From assembly GCA_022361255.1 (NCBI GenBank), contig JAKSBG010000378.1, positions 1 to 60,370 on the forward strand: a DNA stretch of 60,370 nucleotides, written 5' to 3'. A program made the translations under genes and the position numbers. Within the stretch, counting starts at the first letter, position 1; every line of letters begins with the position of its first letter. Under the pieces are notes generated by a model. The model saw only the letters and a program-made list of their open reading frames with translations, was not told the DNA's origin and ran no database searches. This DNA is from Verrucomicrobiales bacterium (GTDB taxonomy: Bacteria > Verrucomicrobiota > Verrucomicrobiia > Verrucomicrobiales > DEV007). Of the stretch, positions 22,752 to 56,713 are shown piece by piece.

Positions 22752-23528
22752 TCAATCGGCCTGATTGTGGGCAACACAATCACGATAGGTTACGCCGCTG
22801 CCGCCGAAGATATCGAGAGCACTTCCGATCGTGAGATCGACCCTGCCGCCACTGAGTCGATTCACGAGATCGAGATCTGCCAGTGAAGAAGCGCCACCCG
22901 CATAGGTGACGGGTTTCTTCCCCCATTTTCCGAGCATCTCCACCAGCTCCTCGTCGATGCCGTCGCATTTGCCTTCGACATCAGCGGCATGGATCAAAAA
23001 TTCGTCGCAGGAGTCAGCCAGGTGCGACAGCGTTTCGTGCGTCACTTCCAGGTCAGTCGGGGTCTGCCAGCGATTCATTGCCACAATCCAGCGATCGTCC
23101 CGTCGCCGGCAGCTCAGATCAATGACGAGCTGTTTTGCGCCGACTTCCGAAACGAGACGCTCGAGAACTTCCGGCCGGAAACGGGCATCGGAGTCAAAGA
23201 GGCAGGACGTCGAGATCACGTGCGACGCGCCGGCATCGAGCCATTCCGCCGCATTTTCCGGGGAAATCCCTCCGCCGATTTGCAGACCTCCGGGCCAGGC
23301 CGCGAGAGCCGACCGTGCTGCCTCGTCATTCCCGGGTCCCAGCTTGATGACATGACCCCCGCGCAATTGATCGGACGCGTAGAGCTCCGCAAACCATGCG
23401 GGGTCTTTTTCACTGACGAAATTCGTTTCCAGCTCCGACTCCTGCGAGTCGAGGGTTCCCCCGACAATCTGCTTCACTTTTCCCTCGTGCAGATCAATGC
23501 AGGGGCGAAAACGAGTGCGGGTGGGCAT
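22752..23528 (-). CDS. hisA: HisA, eukaryotic (HIS6) type phosphoribosylformimino-AICAR isomerase
   Basis: 258 residues, a TIM-barrel isomerase for step 4 of histidine synthesis. FRPCIDLHEGKVKQIVGGTL (residues 6-25) is the hallmark start of the eukaryotic HIS6 group; bacterial HisA typically reads IPAIDLKDGK. The first catalytic Asp is in CIDL and the second in VIDLSCRRRDDRW (about 129-141). Phosphate-binding glycines are in QIGGGIS and the C-terminal GSALDIFGG. The start ATG 23528 is chosen because FRPCIDL should lie near the N-terminus. Array A lies immediately upstream (23535-23587), leaving only 6 bp before the start codon and no visible Shine-Dalgarno. No other his genes are in the window. 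Confidence 0.88.
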   Translation of the reverse strand: MPTRTRFRPCIDLHEGKVKQIVGGTLDSQESELETNFVSEKDPAWFAELYASDQLRGGHVIKLGPGNDEAARSALAAWPGGLQIGGGISPENAAEWLDAGASHVISTSCLFDSDARFRPEVLERLVSEVGAKQLVIDLSCRRRDDRWIVAMNRWQTPTDLEVTHETLSHLADSCDEFLIHAADVEGKCDGIDEELVEMLGKWGKKPVTYAGGASSLADLDLVNRLSGGRVDLTIGSALDIFGGSGVTYRDCVAHNQAD

Positions 23529-23534
23529 GCAGGT

Positions 23535-23587
23535 AACAGGGTTTGGTCGGCGAGGTAACAGGGTTGAGTGCTCCACGGAACCCTGTT
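23535..23587. repeat. phased 9-mer array A (3 units, 22-bp pitch)
   Basis: AACAGGGTT at 23535 and 23557, and the reverse-complement form AACCCTGTT at 23579. Start-to-start distances are exactly 22 bp and spacers are 13 bp of differing sequence. It lies between the GT2-Rossmann gene and hisA, and ends 6 bp from the hisA start codon. See arrays B-E for the same pitch. Confidence 0.9.
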
Positions 23588-23641
23588 GAAACGCGCCGAA
23601 TCTACTGCCGGGAGCGGGCCACCGCAAATGCAATCCCCGGC

Positions 23642-29713: not shown

Positions 29714-32251
29714 CTACTTTTTCTTTTCCGGTGCCGGTTTGACTTCGACAGTGACCGGCAGTGACCAGGTTGCAAATTTCACATCTTTCGACGCGGCCGC
29801 TGTTTTGGCTGCCTTTGCGCGGGTGGCTGCCGCGACTTTTTCTTTTTCGGCACGGGCGAGTTTTGCCTCCGCTTCGGCCGACTTTTTCTGCGCTTCTTCG
29901 AAGGCGGCCTTCGCCGTCTCGGCGGTTTTAGCGAGGTCCGCTTTTGCTTCAACCGAGGCTGTGTTCGAATTTTGCTGCGCCTGTTCGAGGGCTTTCTTTT
30001 TCGATGCCAGTTCCGATTTGGCAGCCGCCGCTTCTGTGGCGATTTTTTTTGCGAGCGATTCGATGTGCTTCTGCTCTTCCGCCGTTCTTTCTGCAGCCTC
30101 CGGGTTGCGTTGGAAGGCAACCGTTCCCGTTCCTTTCAGGACAAACGTCCACGTTCCCGGCTCGGGATTGAAGATTTTGTTCTGCTTCGTGAAGGTAAGG
30201 GTGAGTTTCCCGTCTTTTGCTTTTTCCGCGATATTTACGGAAGGGGGACGGCTCAGTCCGCGTAGACCGACAACGGTGACGGCGAGGTTTCCTTTTCGTT
30301 GGTGATCTGTCAGGACTTTGATCGGGATCTCCAGCTTCCCGCCCATCGTCACGGAGAATCTCCGATCATTTCCCGCCTCGATTCGCACTGCAGGTTTCGT
30401 TTTCCGTTCGGTAACGACGAGGGGAGTATCGAGTTCGAGTCGGGAACGGATCCGTGCGGTGTTGTAGTCCGCGACTCCCATTGTCAGAGACCCGCTCCGC
30501 ACGGGCCGGGTCCGTTCTTTTCCATTGATCTTTGCGGTCGCCAAAAGGGAGAAATTTCCGGACCACGGTTTCGCATCGTTACCGGCGGCAAGAACGAGAC
30601 GGGTCGACGTCTCTTTGGCATGCAGAATCACCGGCGGAGCGGAGATCCCGGGCGGAAGATTTTTTGCGGTAATTGTGATGGGACCGTCAAATCCGTCGAT
30701 TCGTTTTGCAAAGATGCGGATGGGAAACGTGCTGCCCTGTGTGAGATAGGGAGCGGCGGAATAGGCCTGACGTTGATCGAGATAGGGGCGCTCGGTTGTC
30801 GCGATGATGTCGAAGCCGGGCTGAGCTTCCCGGATTGAGAGCCGGTAAGTGTTGTCCGCGCCGCCGGTGGCGAAACGGTTCTCCACCGTGATGCGATACT
30901 CCCCGTCCTGATCGGAGGTGAAACTCAGAGCTGTGTCCCTCGTTCCGTCGCGGAAATGAATGCCCCCACTGCCGTTGTCATCATCACTGTCGCGAACAGT
31001 GGCAAAGGTTTCCGTTCCGTTATCCGCCTTCGTGATTTTCTCGACGACGAGGTAGGGATCGATCTTTCCTGCGATCCGGTCAGCGATGACTTCGACCCAG
31101 TAGGTGGTTCCTTTTCTCGTGCTGATCCGAAAAGCGTCGGTGTCCCCGTCCTTTTCGAGGACGGAAGCGATCTCTTTAGGGGGAACAACAGTCGGAATGT
31201 CTGCATCATTTTCCACGGAAAGGACCGGCGCGTAAGCGAGACCGATTTTGACCCGGTTGGAATCTGCATGCCGGTAGCGGAATCCGGAGAGCGAAGCACG
31301 GGCCGGTTCGTTCCATTCAAATACGGGGGGTGCCTCTTTCTTCGGAATCGGAATTTTCACCGGGAGGGTTTCGATTTTCTTTCCGTCGATTTCCAGCCCC
31401 TCCCCGGCACTTCCACCGGGGAGATTGCGACCTAACAGGGTTGCCTGTGCGACCTTACCCTGTTGGGTGTCCGGTGTAACAGGGTTGGGCACGTGCACGG
31501 CAGGGGGGAATACAGCATCGATCCAGGGTTGGGCGCTGACCTGAAGAATATAGGGATGGAGATTGCTCCCTTTGTAGAGAGCATCGTGCACGCCGATCCA
31601 GTAGTTTCCATCGGCGGGTGCTGTGAAATCGAGCATGGGGTCGCGTCCCACAAAATCACGATTGGATTCCAGTTCGACGCCGTTTCTGTCGACCAGTTTG
31701 AGACTGGCATCGCCCTGGGAGTCGATGCGTTCCGCGTGGCAGTGGACGAGGAGACGTTCACCTTTCTTTGCCGAAAGTTTCCACCAGTCGATCTGGTTAT
31801 TGTCAGTCAACCCGTAGGCGAATGCTTCACGTGGAAGCTTCGGGGCTGTTTCCCGTTTGTGATGAGCGGCTTTATCACTGTCGGAAAGAATCGTCGCATC
31901 ACCTGCTGCAATCTTGAGCGGGCGGGTGTTGGAAATTCCGAAGTAGCCAAGCGCACGAACTTCAACGGTTTTTGCAGAAGCGTCGGCCGGGATGGTTACT
32001 TCAAATTTGTTTCCGTCAGGGACGGGATACAGTCGAAAATCATTCTTTGGCAGGTAGAGCTTCTTCGCAGTGATTTTCGGATCCGAAAACCGCAATTCCG
32101 AAAGTTCGTCGGTGTTGGATCCGGATACGGAGATGGTGGTCGTTGTTCCGGCTTTTACGACGGGAGGGTCGATGGAGCGCAGCTCGATATTCGGAAGTTG
32201 TGCGAATGTTAGTCCAGGAAGAAGGCCGAATAGATATACCAGAGAGCGCAT
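29714..32251 (-). CDS. secreted PPC/IPT-domain protein with a C-terminal coiled coil
   Basis: About 845 residues. A signal peptide (1-17) is followed by an IPT/TIG-like domain (about 24-115), a pre-peptidase C-terminal (PPC)-like domain (about 150-240, with GNYWIGVHD), a middle section with a second PPC-like unit (about 400-500) and beta-rich domains, then an Ala/Lys/Glu coiled coil (about 718-825). It is a PVC-type companion of PSD1 and DUF1501 proteins and probably a periplasmic binding or scaffold protein. Residues 256-273 (NPVTPDTQQGKVAQATLL) are encoded by phased array B, in frame. A homologous GRNLPGG turn follows directly at 274-280. Confidence 0.8.
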   Translation of the reverse strand: MRSLVYLFGLLPGLTFAQLPNIELRSIDPPVVKAGTTTTISVSGSNTDELSELRFSDPKITAKKLYLPKNDFRLYPVPDGNKFEVTIPADASAKTVEVRALGYFGISNTRPLKIAAGDATILSDSDKAAHHKRETAPKLPREAFAYGLTDNNQIDWWKLSAKKGERLLVHCHAERIDSQGDASLKLVDRNGVELESNRDFVGRDPMLDFTAPADGNYWIGVHDALYKGSNLHPYILQVSAQPWIDAVFPPAVHVPNPVTPDTQQGKVAQATLLGRNLPGGSAGEGLEIDGKKIETLPVKIPIPKKEAPPVFEWNEPARASLSGFRYRHADSNRVKIGLAYAPVLSVENDADIPTVVPPKEIASVLEKDGDTDAFRISTRKGTTYWVEVIADRIAGKIDPYLVVEKITKADNGTETFATVRDSDDDNGSGGIHFRDGTRDTALSFTSDQDGEYRITVENRFATGGADNTYRLSIREAQPGFDIIATTERPYLDQRQAYSAAPYLTQGSTFPIRIFAKRIDGFDGPITITAKNLPPGISAPPVILHAKETSTRLVLAAGNDAKPWSGNFSLLATAKINGKERTRPVRSGSLTMGVADYNTARIRSRLELDTPLVVTERKTKPAVRIEAGNDRRFSVTMGGKLEIPIKVLTDHQRKGNLAVTVVGLRGLSRPPSVNIAEKAKDGKLTLTFTKQNKIFNPEPGTWTFVLKGTGTVAFQRNPEAAERTAEEQKHIESLAKKIATEAAAAKSELASKKKALEQAQQNSNTASVEAKADLAKTAETAKAAFEEAQKKSAEAEAKLARAEKEKVAAATRAKAAKTAAASKDVKFATWSLPVTVEVKPAPEKKK
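31434..31486. repeat. phased 9-mer array B inside a coding region
   Basis: AACAGGGTT at 31434, TACCCTGTT at 31456, AACAGGGTT at 31478: exactly 22-bp steps, the middle unit in the opposite orientation. Unlike the other four arrays it lies inside a gene, encoding residues 256-273 of the PPC/IPT protein. The array preserves that frame although 22 is not a multiple of three, so each unit is read in a different phase. Confidence 0.88.
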
Positions 32252-39526: not shown

Positions 39527-39556
39527 ATTTTTCCCATTCTTCGAATGAACCGGGCA

Positions 39557-39609
39557 AACAGGGTTAAATCAGACATTCAACAGGGTCGGGTCGCCGGCCA
39601 AACCGTGTT
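39557..39609. repeat. phased 9-mer array C (3 units, 22-bp pitch)
   Basis: AACAGGGTT at 39557, AACAGGGTC at 39579 and AACCGTGTT at 39601, in exact 22-bp steps. The third unit has centre CGT instead of CCT, whose complement ACG recurs in array E. It lies between nhaA and sbtA, 37 bp before the sbtA start. Confidence 0.85.
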
Positions 39610-39646
39610 GAGCCAGCCGGACGGGAATTCTCAGTGGCCAAATTAG

Positions 39647-48608: not shown

Positions 48609-48888
48609 CGTGAGAATCCGTTAAATTTCGTTTTCGCGCCGGTTGATGAGTTCGACCGGGTCGCGGGCGGGCAATTTCCGCACATTTCGCGATTGGTCAA
48701 GGGGAAATCAGAGCGGCGTAGCAGCTCATTCCTTTTCCTAATCCTGTTTGCTCCATGACCTAACCCTGTTGGGTCCTCGACTTAACCCTGTTAGGTCCTC
48801 GACTTAACCCTGTTAGGTCTCCACTTTTTCCCCTTGCGGAAAGGGTGGCGGAGTTCACCTTACGCACCTTCTTAAAAAATACGAAGAC
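48609..48888. other. divergent rpmB-glyS intergenic region
   Basis: 280 bp, the longest gap without a gene besides 56499-56713. It should contain promoters for rpmB (-) and glyS (+) and holds array D. I see no tRNA and no hairpin terminator. The segment just before glyS (48830-48888) is AT-rich near AAAAAATACGAAGAC. Confidence 0.5.
48740..48814. repeat. phased 9-mer array D (4 units, 22-bp pitch, same orientation)
   Basis: AATCCTGTT at 48740 and AACCCTGTT at 48762, 48784 and 48806, all exactly 22 bp apart. The spacers are also alike here (GGTCCTCGACTT repeated), so it is a true 22-bp tandem repeat. Flanks extend the dyad: the second unit reads GACCTAAC-CCT-GTTGGGTC. All four units face the same way, which argues against an RNA hairpin role for this copy. 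Confidence 0.92.
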
Positions 48889-50472
48889 ATGAGCGAAAAA
48901 GCATCCGAAAAAGATCAGGTCCTGATGGAAAAAATCGTCAGCCTTTGCAAAAGGCGCGGTTTCATCTTTCAATCGGCGGAGATATACGGCGGAGCAAACG
49001 GGTGCTGGGACTACGGCCCGCTCGGGGCGGAGTTGAAGCGCAATCTCAAGGATTACTGGTGGAGAAAGAATGTTCAGGAACGCGAAGACATTCTTGGACT
49101 CGACGGGGCGATTTTGACCCTCGAGTCAGTTCTCGAAGCCTCCGGTCACCTCGGCGGATTCTCGGATCCAATGTGTGACTGCCTGCTGACAAAGGCGCGT
49201 CTTCGGGCGGATGAGATCGAGCCCTGGTCCGGAACGGCCTATCACTACACGGGGGCTTCTCATGAAGAGTCCGGATGGTCGGTTGAGCGCCCGTATTCGG
49301 TTCTCCTTTCCGAAGGTCAGGATGAAAACAAGGCGCGCAAGACGGCCCGGCTCTACTACTCCCAGTTTCTCAGTGACAAGCAGATTTCCCCGAAAAAACT
49401 CGAGCTCGCAGGTGAGTCGACTGAGGAAGTCACCGATTCCACCGCCTACAATCCGGAGAATGGATCGCTGCTGACCCCGGCCCGTGAATTCAATCTCATG
49501 TTCAAAACGAAAATGGGAGCTTCGGCGGATGAAAACGATCCGAAAGGAACCGCCTATCTTCGCCCCGGGACGGCGCAGACCATTTTTGTTCAATTCAAAA
49601 ACGTGGTTGATTCCAACCGGGTGAAACTGCCTTTCGGAATCGCCCAGATCGGGAAATCGTTCCGCAACGAGATCAATCCGAGAAATTACACCTTCCGCTC
49701 ACGCGAGTTTGAGCAGATGGAAATCGAGTATTTCTGTCACGGGGAGGACGGGTTGCGTCTCACCGACGAGTGGCTCGAAAAACGACTCACCTTTTACGAG
49801 GAAATCGGGATTCCGCGTGAACATCTTCACGTCGTTGATATTCCCGACGGCGAGCGGGCGCACTATTCGAAGAAGACGTACGATATCGAATACGAATTTC
49901 CGTTCGGAATTCAGGAGCTGGAGGGAATCGCCTACCGGACGGATTACGATCTCAAAAAACACCGCGAGCACAGCGGCAAGCCGATCGAGTTTTTCGATGA
50001 TGAGGCCAAGGAGAAACTTCTCCCTCACGTCGTCGAGCCGAGTGCCGGTTGCGACCGGACGCTCCTTGCGCTCATTTGCGAGGCCTACGACGAGGAGACA
50101 ATCACTGATGACAAGGGCAAAGAGGAAACCCGCATCGTGATGCGCTTCTCTCCCCGCATGGCTCCGATCAAGGTTGCCGTTTTGCCCTTGCTGAAAAACA
50201 AACCCGAGCTCGTCGAAAAAGCGCGCGAGGTGCAGGCCATGCTCACGCCTTTCATGAACGTTTTCTACGACGAGACCGCCGCGATCGGCCGCCGCTATCG
50301 TCGTCAGGATGAAGTGGGAACTCCCTTCTGCGTTACGATTGACTTTGAGACGCTCGGGGAAAACGGTGACGAAGACAAAGACACTGTGACCCTCCGCGAG
50401 CGCGACTCCATGGAGCAAAAGCGAATCCCGATTTCAGAGCTGCGTCAGTATCTGCTGGATGCGATTGCCTAG
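48889..50472 (+). CDS. glyS: glycyl-tRNA synthetase, single-chain (alpha2) type
   Basis: 527 residues, class II. KRRGFIFQSAEIYGGANGCWDYGPLG (about 22-47) is the glycine-site start typical of the eukaryote/archaea/some-bacteria GlyQS type rather than the alpha2beta2 enzyme. Motif 2 is FRNEINPRNYTFRSREFEQ (about 258-276). Motif 3 is PSAGCDRTLLAL (about 383-394). The C-terminal anticodon-binding domain follows (about 420-527, IKVAVLPLLKNK). An insert about 95-200 holds TGASHEESGW and PENGSLLTPAREFNLMF. It is convergent with the NDH-2 fusion gene, separated by a bidirectional terminator. Confidence 0.96.
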   Translation: MSEKASEKDQVLMEKIVSLCKRRGFIFQSAEIYGGANGCWDYGPLGAELKRNLKDYWWRKNVQEREDILGLDGAILTLESVLEASGHLGGFSDPMCDCLLTKARLRADEIEPWSGTAYHYTGASHEESGWSVERPYSVLLSEGQDENKARKTARLYYSQFLSDKQISPKKLELAGESTEEVTDSTAYNPENGSLLTPAREFNLMFKTKMGASADENDPKGTAYLRPGTAQTIFVQFKNVVDSNRVKLPFGIAQIGKSFRNEINPRNYTFRSREFEQMEIEYFCHGEDGLRLTDEWLEKRLTFYEEIGIPREHLHVVDIPDGERAHYSKKTYDIEYEFPFGIQELEGIAYRTDYDLKKHREHSGKPIEFFDDEAKEKLLPHVVEPSAGCDRTLLALICEAYDEETITDDKGKEETRIVMRFSPRMAPIKVAVLPLLKNKPELVEKAREVQAMLTPFMNVFYDETAAIGRRYRRQDEVGTPFCVTIDFETLGENGDEDKDTVTLRERDSMEQKRIPISELRQYLLDAIA

Positions 50473-56498: not shown

Positions 56499-56713
56499 TA
56501 CTTGGATTCAATTGAATCAACAGGGTATGGTGCAGGATCTGACACGGTTGGGTCACGCATCATACCCTGTTTCCTGTACTTCCCGGCAGGGGAATCGGCG
56601 AATTCCCCTCAGCGCGTGCTTGACCGGCACGGGAGGTGACGTGTTCACTATCGGCACACGTTTTGAAACCGTTTCACGAGAACTATACGCGCCTGGCGAA
56701 AAGCCTATCCGGA
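56499..56713. other. intergenic region upstream of the DUF4129 operon
   Basis: 215 bp holding array E at its left end. The remainder has no hairpin terminator or tRNA. A GTG at 56636 is in frame with the next gene but extends it by 26 residues without domain support. Confidence 0.5.
56519..56571. repeat. phased 9-mer array E (3 units, 22-bp pitch)
   Basis: AACAGGGTA at 56519, GACACGGTT at 56541 and TACCCTGTT at 56563, again exactly 22 bp apart. The middle unit is degenerate (centre ACG). A still weaker fourth unit, GGCAGGGGA, falls at 56585, also on the 22-bp register. It lies 20 bp after the peroxidase stop. Confidence 0.78.

Follow-up and report, generated by a model that had tools for sequence, protein, structure and literature searches.

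The matS sites of the matS/MatP system, SlmA-binding sites and parS are chromosome landmark sites that occur singly and in particular regions. CRISPR arrays, which lie near cas genes, combine conserved repeats of 24–48 bp with unique spacers. We know of no even spacing among the stoperators of mycobacteriophages. These stoperators are many asymmetric repressor sites spread over the phage genome (PMC9283540). REP/BIME sequences, reported in Verrucomicrobia from O. terrae, are high in copy number, mainly extragenic and found in both orientations (PMC3733652), and the BrickBuilt MITE of Porphyromonas gingivalis is described as 19 copies with 23-nt tandem units, a leader, a tail and inverted-repeat ends (PMC4596501). 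Here we describe short arrays in a Verrucomicrobiales genome, starting from one that lies inside a protein-coding gene. A literature search, with most subscription journals outside its coverage, found no paper on such arrays.

An array inside a PPC-domain gene

The window, the whole 60,370-nucleotide stretch of DNA analysed, holds five arrays, and single arrays within it contain units of either orientation (Table 1). The array inside the PPC-domain gene consists of units at 31431–31445 (−), 31453–31467 (+) and 31475–31489 (−), which score 21.8, 23.2 and 17.6 against a position matrix. The consensus unit, A-n3-AACCCTGTT-n3-T, is near-palindromic and occurs in both orientations. The initial annotation had placed three in-frame units in this gene, just before a GRNLPGG turn, and we confirm both points: the centres are exactly 22 bp apart, residues 255–274 are encoded with the reading frame unbroken, and the conserved G-R-N-L-P-G-G comes directly after. 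Its label of a PPC/IPT protein holds for PPC, whereas IPT was undetected in the same domain scan. In protein order the array sits 3′ of the PPC domain and outside it.

Table 1. Arrays and associated features in the window
Feature	Position	Strand	Remarks
Three-unit array (−,−,+)	23531..23591	.	Adjoins start codon of HisA-like gene 22752–23528 (−)
PPC-domain secreted-type protein gene, 845 aa	29714..32251	−	Array host; PF04151, E 2e-12, residues 155–222
PPC-gene array, three units (−,+,−)	31430..31490	.	Centres 31438, 31460, 31482; pitch 22
30-nt in-frame insertion, residues 252–261	31469..31498	−	Holds unit 3; only in the window gene among 19 copies
Intergenic three-unit array (−,−,+)	39553..39613	.	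Upstream of bicarbonate-transporter-like gene
Intergenic four-unit array (+,+,+,+)	48736..48818	.	Upstream of gene at 48889
Intergenic three-unit array (−,−,+)	56515..56575	.	16 bp past a gene end

The units in the PPC gene are not a product of chance, because CCTAACCCTGTTAGG with up to three mismatches is in excess in the window (9 matches versus 0.60 expected) and because triples keep to a single pitch: at a matrix score of at least 15, 776 kb contained 58 triples at pitch 22 and none at pitches 19, 20, 21, 23, 24, 25 and 33.

A genome-wide family with a fixed pitch

The genome of the window (G000) comprises 5.85 Mb in 548 contigs. Within it, matches to the 15-mer number 129 when at most two mismatches are allowed (24 for the reversed control), direct pairs at a 22-bp pitch number 314 (control 0), and an orientation-free triple, AACNNNGTT three times, matches 374 times (control 4). 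Between core matches in 451 kb, 22 and 44 bp are the only distances with at least three counts, and they join units of the same orientation (26 and 12 counts, respectively) and of opposite orientation (24 and 12). The view that a 22-bp phase of the DNA is the conserved feature is borne out genome-wide by these pitch and distance counts.

An enlarged sample of 1.049 Mb contains 84 arrays, 83 of which span three unit positions and one of which spans four; counting units that score at least 8, there are three in 73 of the 84 arrays, two in 10 and four in 1. The sampled stretches were picked because their contigs held a match, which biases array density upward.

Probable sites on double-stranded DNA

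Unit positions −4 to +4 are almost invariant, as are an A at −8 and a T at +8, and the spacers are variable; the orientation of a unit is determined by its central bases. No covariation was seen at 13 arm positions in 164 units (z from −1.5 to 0.7). Arm positions vary independently and base pairing is therefore not the conserved property, so that a hairpin or RNA reading was rejected.

The flanks beyond the outer units show no conservation, and target-site duplication does not rise above a shuffled control. Among 2,628 pairs of arrays the best non-core identity is 24/36, within the range of the null maxima (22–27), and non-core likeness among arrays equals that of a column shuffle. A mobile element was rejected, as the arrays lack ends and target-site duplication and are not copies of one another. 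With their mixed orientation, absent covariation, bare flanks, absent duplication and chance-level likeness, the arrays read as dimer-type sites on double-stranded DNA and not as copies of a mobile element. We infer that the two halves of a unit would be independent half-sites for a dimer of a putative protein, and that an array would take three such dimers in phase. The suggestion of the initial annotation that the array functions at the DNA level is supported: it fits arms that do not covary, units that point either way and the choice of codons described below.

Origin in the PPC gene and conservation in relatives

We aligned 19 copies of the PPC gene, that of the window and 18 homologues, one of which (L051) has a single extra residue at the site of the insertion. 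Units 1 and 2 lie on an ancestral peptide, Q-x-G-x-V-x-x-A-T-L-x-G-R, that is common to the homologues and in which they are already 22 nt apart. The array had been thought either to insert into coding DNA or to arise there. The alignment speaks for arising and against insertion of a block: unit 3 was inserted with ten codons and units 1 and 2 were not, and therefore the array did not enter as a single piece. So it arose through substitutions that matured units 1 and 2, together with a small insertion.

Codon choice bears on the same question. When synonymous codons were shuffled, 11 of the 18 homologues leaned towards the motif at P < 0.05, a value that is uncorrected and comes from partly related species; the lean is strong in four (G004, G015, G013 and G019; 0/1,000 shuffles, both units above 10). 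No lean at 0.05 appears in the other seven (G036, G039, G037 and L075–L078). The P value of the window gene itself is circular, as the matrix was derived in part from the units of this gene. The array in this gene might instead be coincidental, its resemblance to the motif constrained by the peptide, and both the conserved peptide with its ancestral 22-nt spacing under units 1 and 2 and the seven homologues lacking a lean would accord with this. Such a coincidence is nevertheless improbable in view of the strong lean in four divergent homologues, the arrival of unit 3 in register within the insertion, and the 13 of 81 placed arrays that lie in called genes. Overall, the first interpretation of the array in the PPC gene is partly supported.

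Nine arrays of G000 could be compared with counterparts in the sister species G002, where six keep both place and phase; of these six, two have a third unit that scores about −3, and another has no third unit any more. One further array is out of phase and two are absent, including that of the PPC gene. Identity between the two species is 84/108 in half-sites and 88/168 in spacers, a comparison biased to the motif by taking the best triple. The array at 23531 is in place in two other species, and in G002 its third unit is at the same spot with a different centre. At the site of the four-unit array at 48736, G002 has three units; of 27 orthologous regions preceding the gene at 48889, with one contig represented twice, an array is present in those of G000 and G002 alone. 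In both species it lies directly upstream of a promoter-like block before that gene, TTTCCCCTTGCGG ... GGCTATCTTGTG (window 48819–48889), which is kept in most species of the genus. The counterpart of the 39553 intergene in G038 is shorter, and no array was seen in it.

Across the genus, at least one triple occurs in 30 of 33 genomes, with counts from 374 down to 1 and 0 in the others; with the three mismatches allowed, counts of 1–4 are at control level, and a shifted form of the motif may be in use in some of the genomes, which are not complete. A scan of 387 genomes of the phylum with two mismatches gave 20 that match, all of which except G000 have one or two. In G041 (L136, L237) we observed longer, six-unit direct-repeat arrays with near-identical spacers, which suggests local tandem duplication.

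Even spacing along the chromosome

Even spacing is the main new result. The 84 arrays, on 45 contigs or stretches, define 40 adjacent distances, of which one is below 3 kb (11.4 expected) and two are below 4.5 kb (16.0 expected). The coefficient of variation is 0.55 versus 0.91 when the same numbers of arrays were placed randomly in intergenic positions, and 0/5,000 simulations were as extreme; these stretches were selected for holding a match, and the test takes the number of arrays on each contig as given. The geometric mean spacing is 9.3 kb, and about 10 kb is typical. Under seven settings (five of triples, one of these without the window, and two of pairs), one or two distances fall below 4.5 kb, compared with simulated means of 10.7–15.9 and no simulation below 3.

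Placement relative to genes

Genes were called with a home-made caller (90.3% coding), and three of the 84 arrays lie too close to the end of a stretch to be placed. Although intergenic bases make up only 9.7%, 68 of the 81 arrays that could be placed fall between genes, and the other 13 lie inside called genes. Convergent intergenes are mildly enriched (17/68 versus 9.8 expected, P = 0.023), and their share was higher among the first 58 arrays (15 of 47 intergenic arrays with both neighbours called). This enrichment and the orientation-free sites would suit transcription roadblocks or terminator-like sites, at which a bound protein would halt RNA polymerase coming from either direction, in the manner of the mycobacteriophage stoperators. 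Intrinsic terminators at −11 kcal/mol occur in 2 of 15 array-bearing convergent intergenes versus 19 of 47 (P = 0.066), and no difference was found against short intergenes or masked controls; replacement of terminators, suggestive initially, was rejected as not significant once length and masking were controlled. With no significant shortage of terminators, no preference of co-directional arrays for stop codons (22 of 42 are nearer the stop codon) and an even spacing that roadblocks do not predict, we regard that explanation as unlikely.

The arrays could also be operators of a global transcription factor, given their palindromic, dimer-type sites, the start codons abutted by the arrays at 23531 and 48736, and the partial conservation in place in G002. 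This, too, seems unlikely. Divergent (promoter) intergenes are not enriched (9/68 versus 13.4 expected), and of 20 scanned genes whose starts face arrays, 18 have Pfam matches, with unrelated functions. Of the 13 genes that carry arrays, ten were scanned and all ten have Pfam domains, their products including a sulfatase, AcrB, an aminotransferase, an aldo/keto reductase and the PPC protein; arrays inside genes speak against operators, as does the even spacing, which operators leave unexplained. An operator regulon was rejected because placement and the functions of neighbouring genes do not fit. With spacing that is even and neighbours that are unrelated, the chromosome-wide distribution is not explained by gene content.

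Proposed anchor sites or possible marks of target immunity

Taken together, a constant number of units, an exact pitch of two helix turns, freedom of orientation, placement indifferent to genes and regular spacing are best fitted by chromosome-organising anchor sites. We tentatively propose, with a probability of roughly 0.48, that the arrays are anchor or boundary sites of chromosome architecture for a putative multimeric DNA-binding protein. A dimeric, cooperative protein would occupy an array as three dimers on one helix face, the 22 bp corresponding to two helix turns that would keep the dimers in phase. Several hundred triplets are kept at roughly even steps of about 10 kb, mostly between genes, whatever the gene function or the unit orientation. 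They might act as periodic anchor or boundary sites for a nucleoid-type protein at about the size of a supercoil domain; bacterial supercoil domains measure approximately 10 kbp, with ends described as stochastic (PMC3820752). The copy in the PPC gene would be a landmark that landed in a coding stretch, by way of ancestral codons resembling the motif and a small in-frame insertion. If this is true, such sequence-encoded, evenly spaced sites would make domain anchoring directly testable. The range from 374 arrays to none among the 33 genomes of the genus is odd for an essential organiser, and the three of nine arrays that are absent or out of phase in G002 also count against the proposal.

The main rival is target immunity, because it predicts even spacing, which regulators, roadblocks and decoys do not. 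The ends of Mu/Tn7-type transposons carry sets of approximately 22-bp sites, and the end sites of transposases are directional. Here the units would be transposase sites of this type, present as immunity-spaced relics or as marks of poor targets kept by the host. Mutual exclusion would give even spacing, and three or four sites at a 22-bp pitch, neutral and mainly intergenic placement and array numbers that differ strongly between species would all be consistent with it; the arrays, however, lack terminal features and target-site duplication, mix unit orientations and are not copies of one another, and we judge target immunity to be an unlikely origin, if a little less so than roadblocks or operators. 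Were the even spacing to stem from it, the arrays would form a genome-wide record of transposition exclusion.

Similar arrays in other organisms and viruses

The orientation-free pattern was found in at least 112 stretches of named genomes, with many Prevotellaceae among the matches listed. In Hoylesella loescheii DSM 19665, from another phylum, 420 triples occur versus 25 in the control. One contig of 376,720 bp (G427 contig C2; loci L480–L495, L395–L398) carries 26 GGAACNNNGTTCC arrays at pitch 22 and none that we found at pitches 20, 21, 23 and 24; 24 of the 26 have four units, and all 26 are intergenic. Neighbours are 9.2–34.7 kb apart (mean 14.4 kb, minimum 9.17 kb), with a coefficient of variation of 0.38 versus 1.03, and ten arrays in 130 kb of another contig are separated by at least 8.75 kb. 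This element may differ in origin from the Verrucomicrobiales arrays, as it is larger, its intergenic flanks are conserved and its copies are alike. In Prevotella UBA4330 (G425; L175, L184, L195), we noted dispersed AACAAAGTT arrays at pitch 22 with similarity at the 11-bp half-pitch.

A broader version of the anchor proposal spans two phyla. Fixed sets of dimer sites at a 22-bp pitch and approximately 10-kb steps, with different sequences, would form a chromosome ruler marking loop or topological-domain anchors, an idea that we hold to be possible, if on balance doubtful. Equally doubtful is the form it would then take: three dimer sites in the Verrucomicrobiales genus and usually four in Hoylesella, with a new class of multimeric protein as the binder. 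Should it hold, domain anchoring would be testable also in the deposited type strain H. loescheii DSM 19665.

Viral contigs contain AACNNNGTT triplets at pitch 22 as well (L281–L330), 35 of 50 in or beside one homologous gene family. The triplets are nearly always inside the host gene, and all eight such genes scanned encode HTH_36 or O-like replication initiators. By their look these triplets would be phage-origin iterons; transposon ends were rejected because of the location in O-like initiator genes. Chromosomal copies of such iterons could be decoys that titrate O-like proteins of phages, and ectopic lambda origins do block the growth of lambda (PMC4488673). This parallel and the shared architecture of those 35 contigs speak for decoys. 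Against them, the repeats are different in the O-like genes found in G004 and at phage locus L428, G000 has no HTH_36 match, and among viral contigs none was found with three AACCCTGTT-type units. Decoys are thus highly improbable, and were rejected because matching phage iterons were not found. Two high-scoring AACCCTGTT units occur in several viral contigs (L427:488–518, L428:4591–4621, and also L453, L454 and L455). Those of L427 and L428 stand directly before a possible start codon, and the repeats in the O-like gene of L428 have a length of 21 bp.

Comparison with known systems

With repeat cores of 9–17 bp, a pitch of 22 and hundreds of three-unit arrays, the family differs from CRISPR. 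As for the ends of Mu/Tn7-type transposons, where directional sites flank an element with its transposase, the units here are mixed in orientation and no ends were seen. MITEs and other insertion elements are not indicated either, since the flanks are uninformative past the outer unit and duplication is not above the null. BrickBuilt shares with our arrays the intergenic placement of short tandem units, but the present arrays lack its ends and are not copies (PMC4596501). REP/BIME sequences, as the cited report presents them, are alike in high copy number, mainly extragenic placement and either orientation (PMC3733652); they differ in that here stem-loop covariation is absent, the consensus carries no GTAG/CGTC tag, the units keep a three-unit register and the arrays are non-copies. 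Indeed, neither a stem-loop kept by pairing (164 units) nor copies of a mobile sequence (by non-core identity) was detected. Stoperators likewise are many sites spread over a genome, theirs being asymmetric and in that of a phage (PMC9283540). Iterons of the lambda O-protein type come close in their palindromic AACNNNGTT units, 22-bp pitch, frequent number of three and in-frame position, but they form one site per phage origin and have other unit sequences, whereas the ten genes scanned here, out of 13 with an array, code for the PPC protein, for transporters and for enzymes of an ordinary kind. The matS/MatP, SlmA and parS systems are alike in having short palindromes across the chromosome that are bound as double-stranded DNA (here a presumed binding) independently of gene function; they differ from the present family, which consists of several hundred fixed triplets with a 22-bp pitch at steps of approximately 10 kb.
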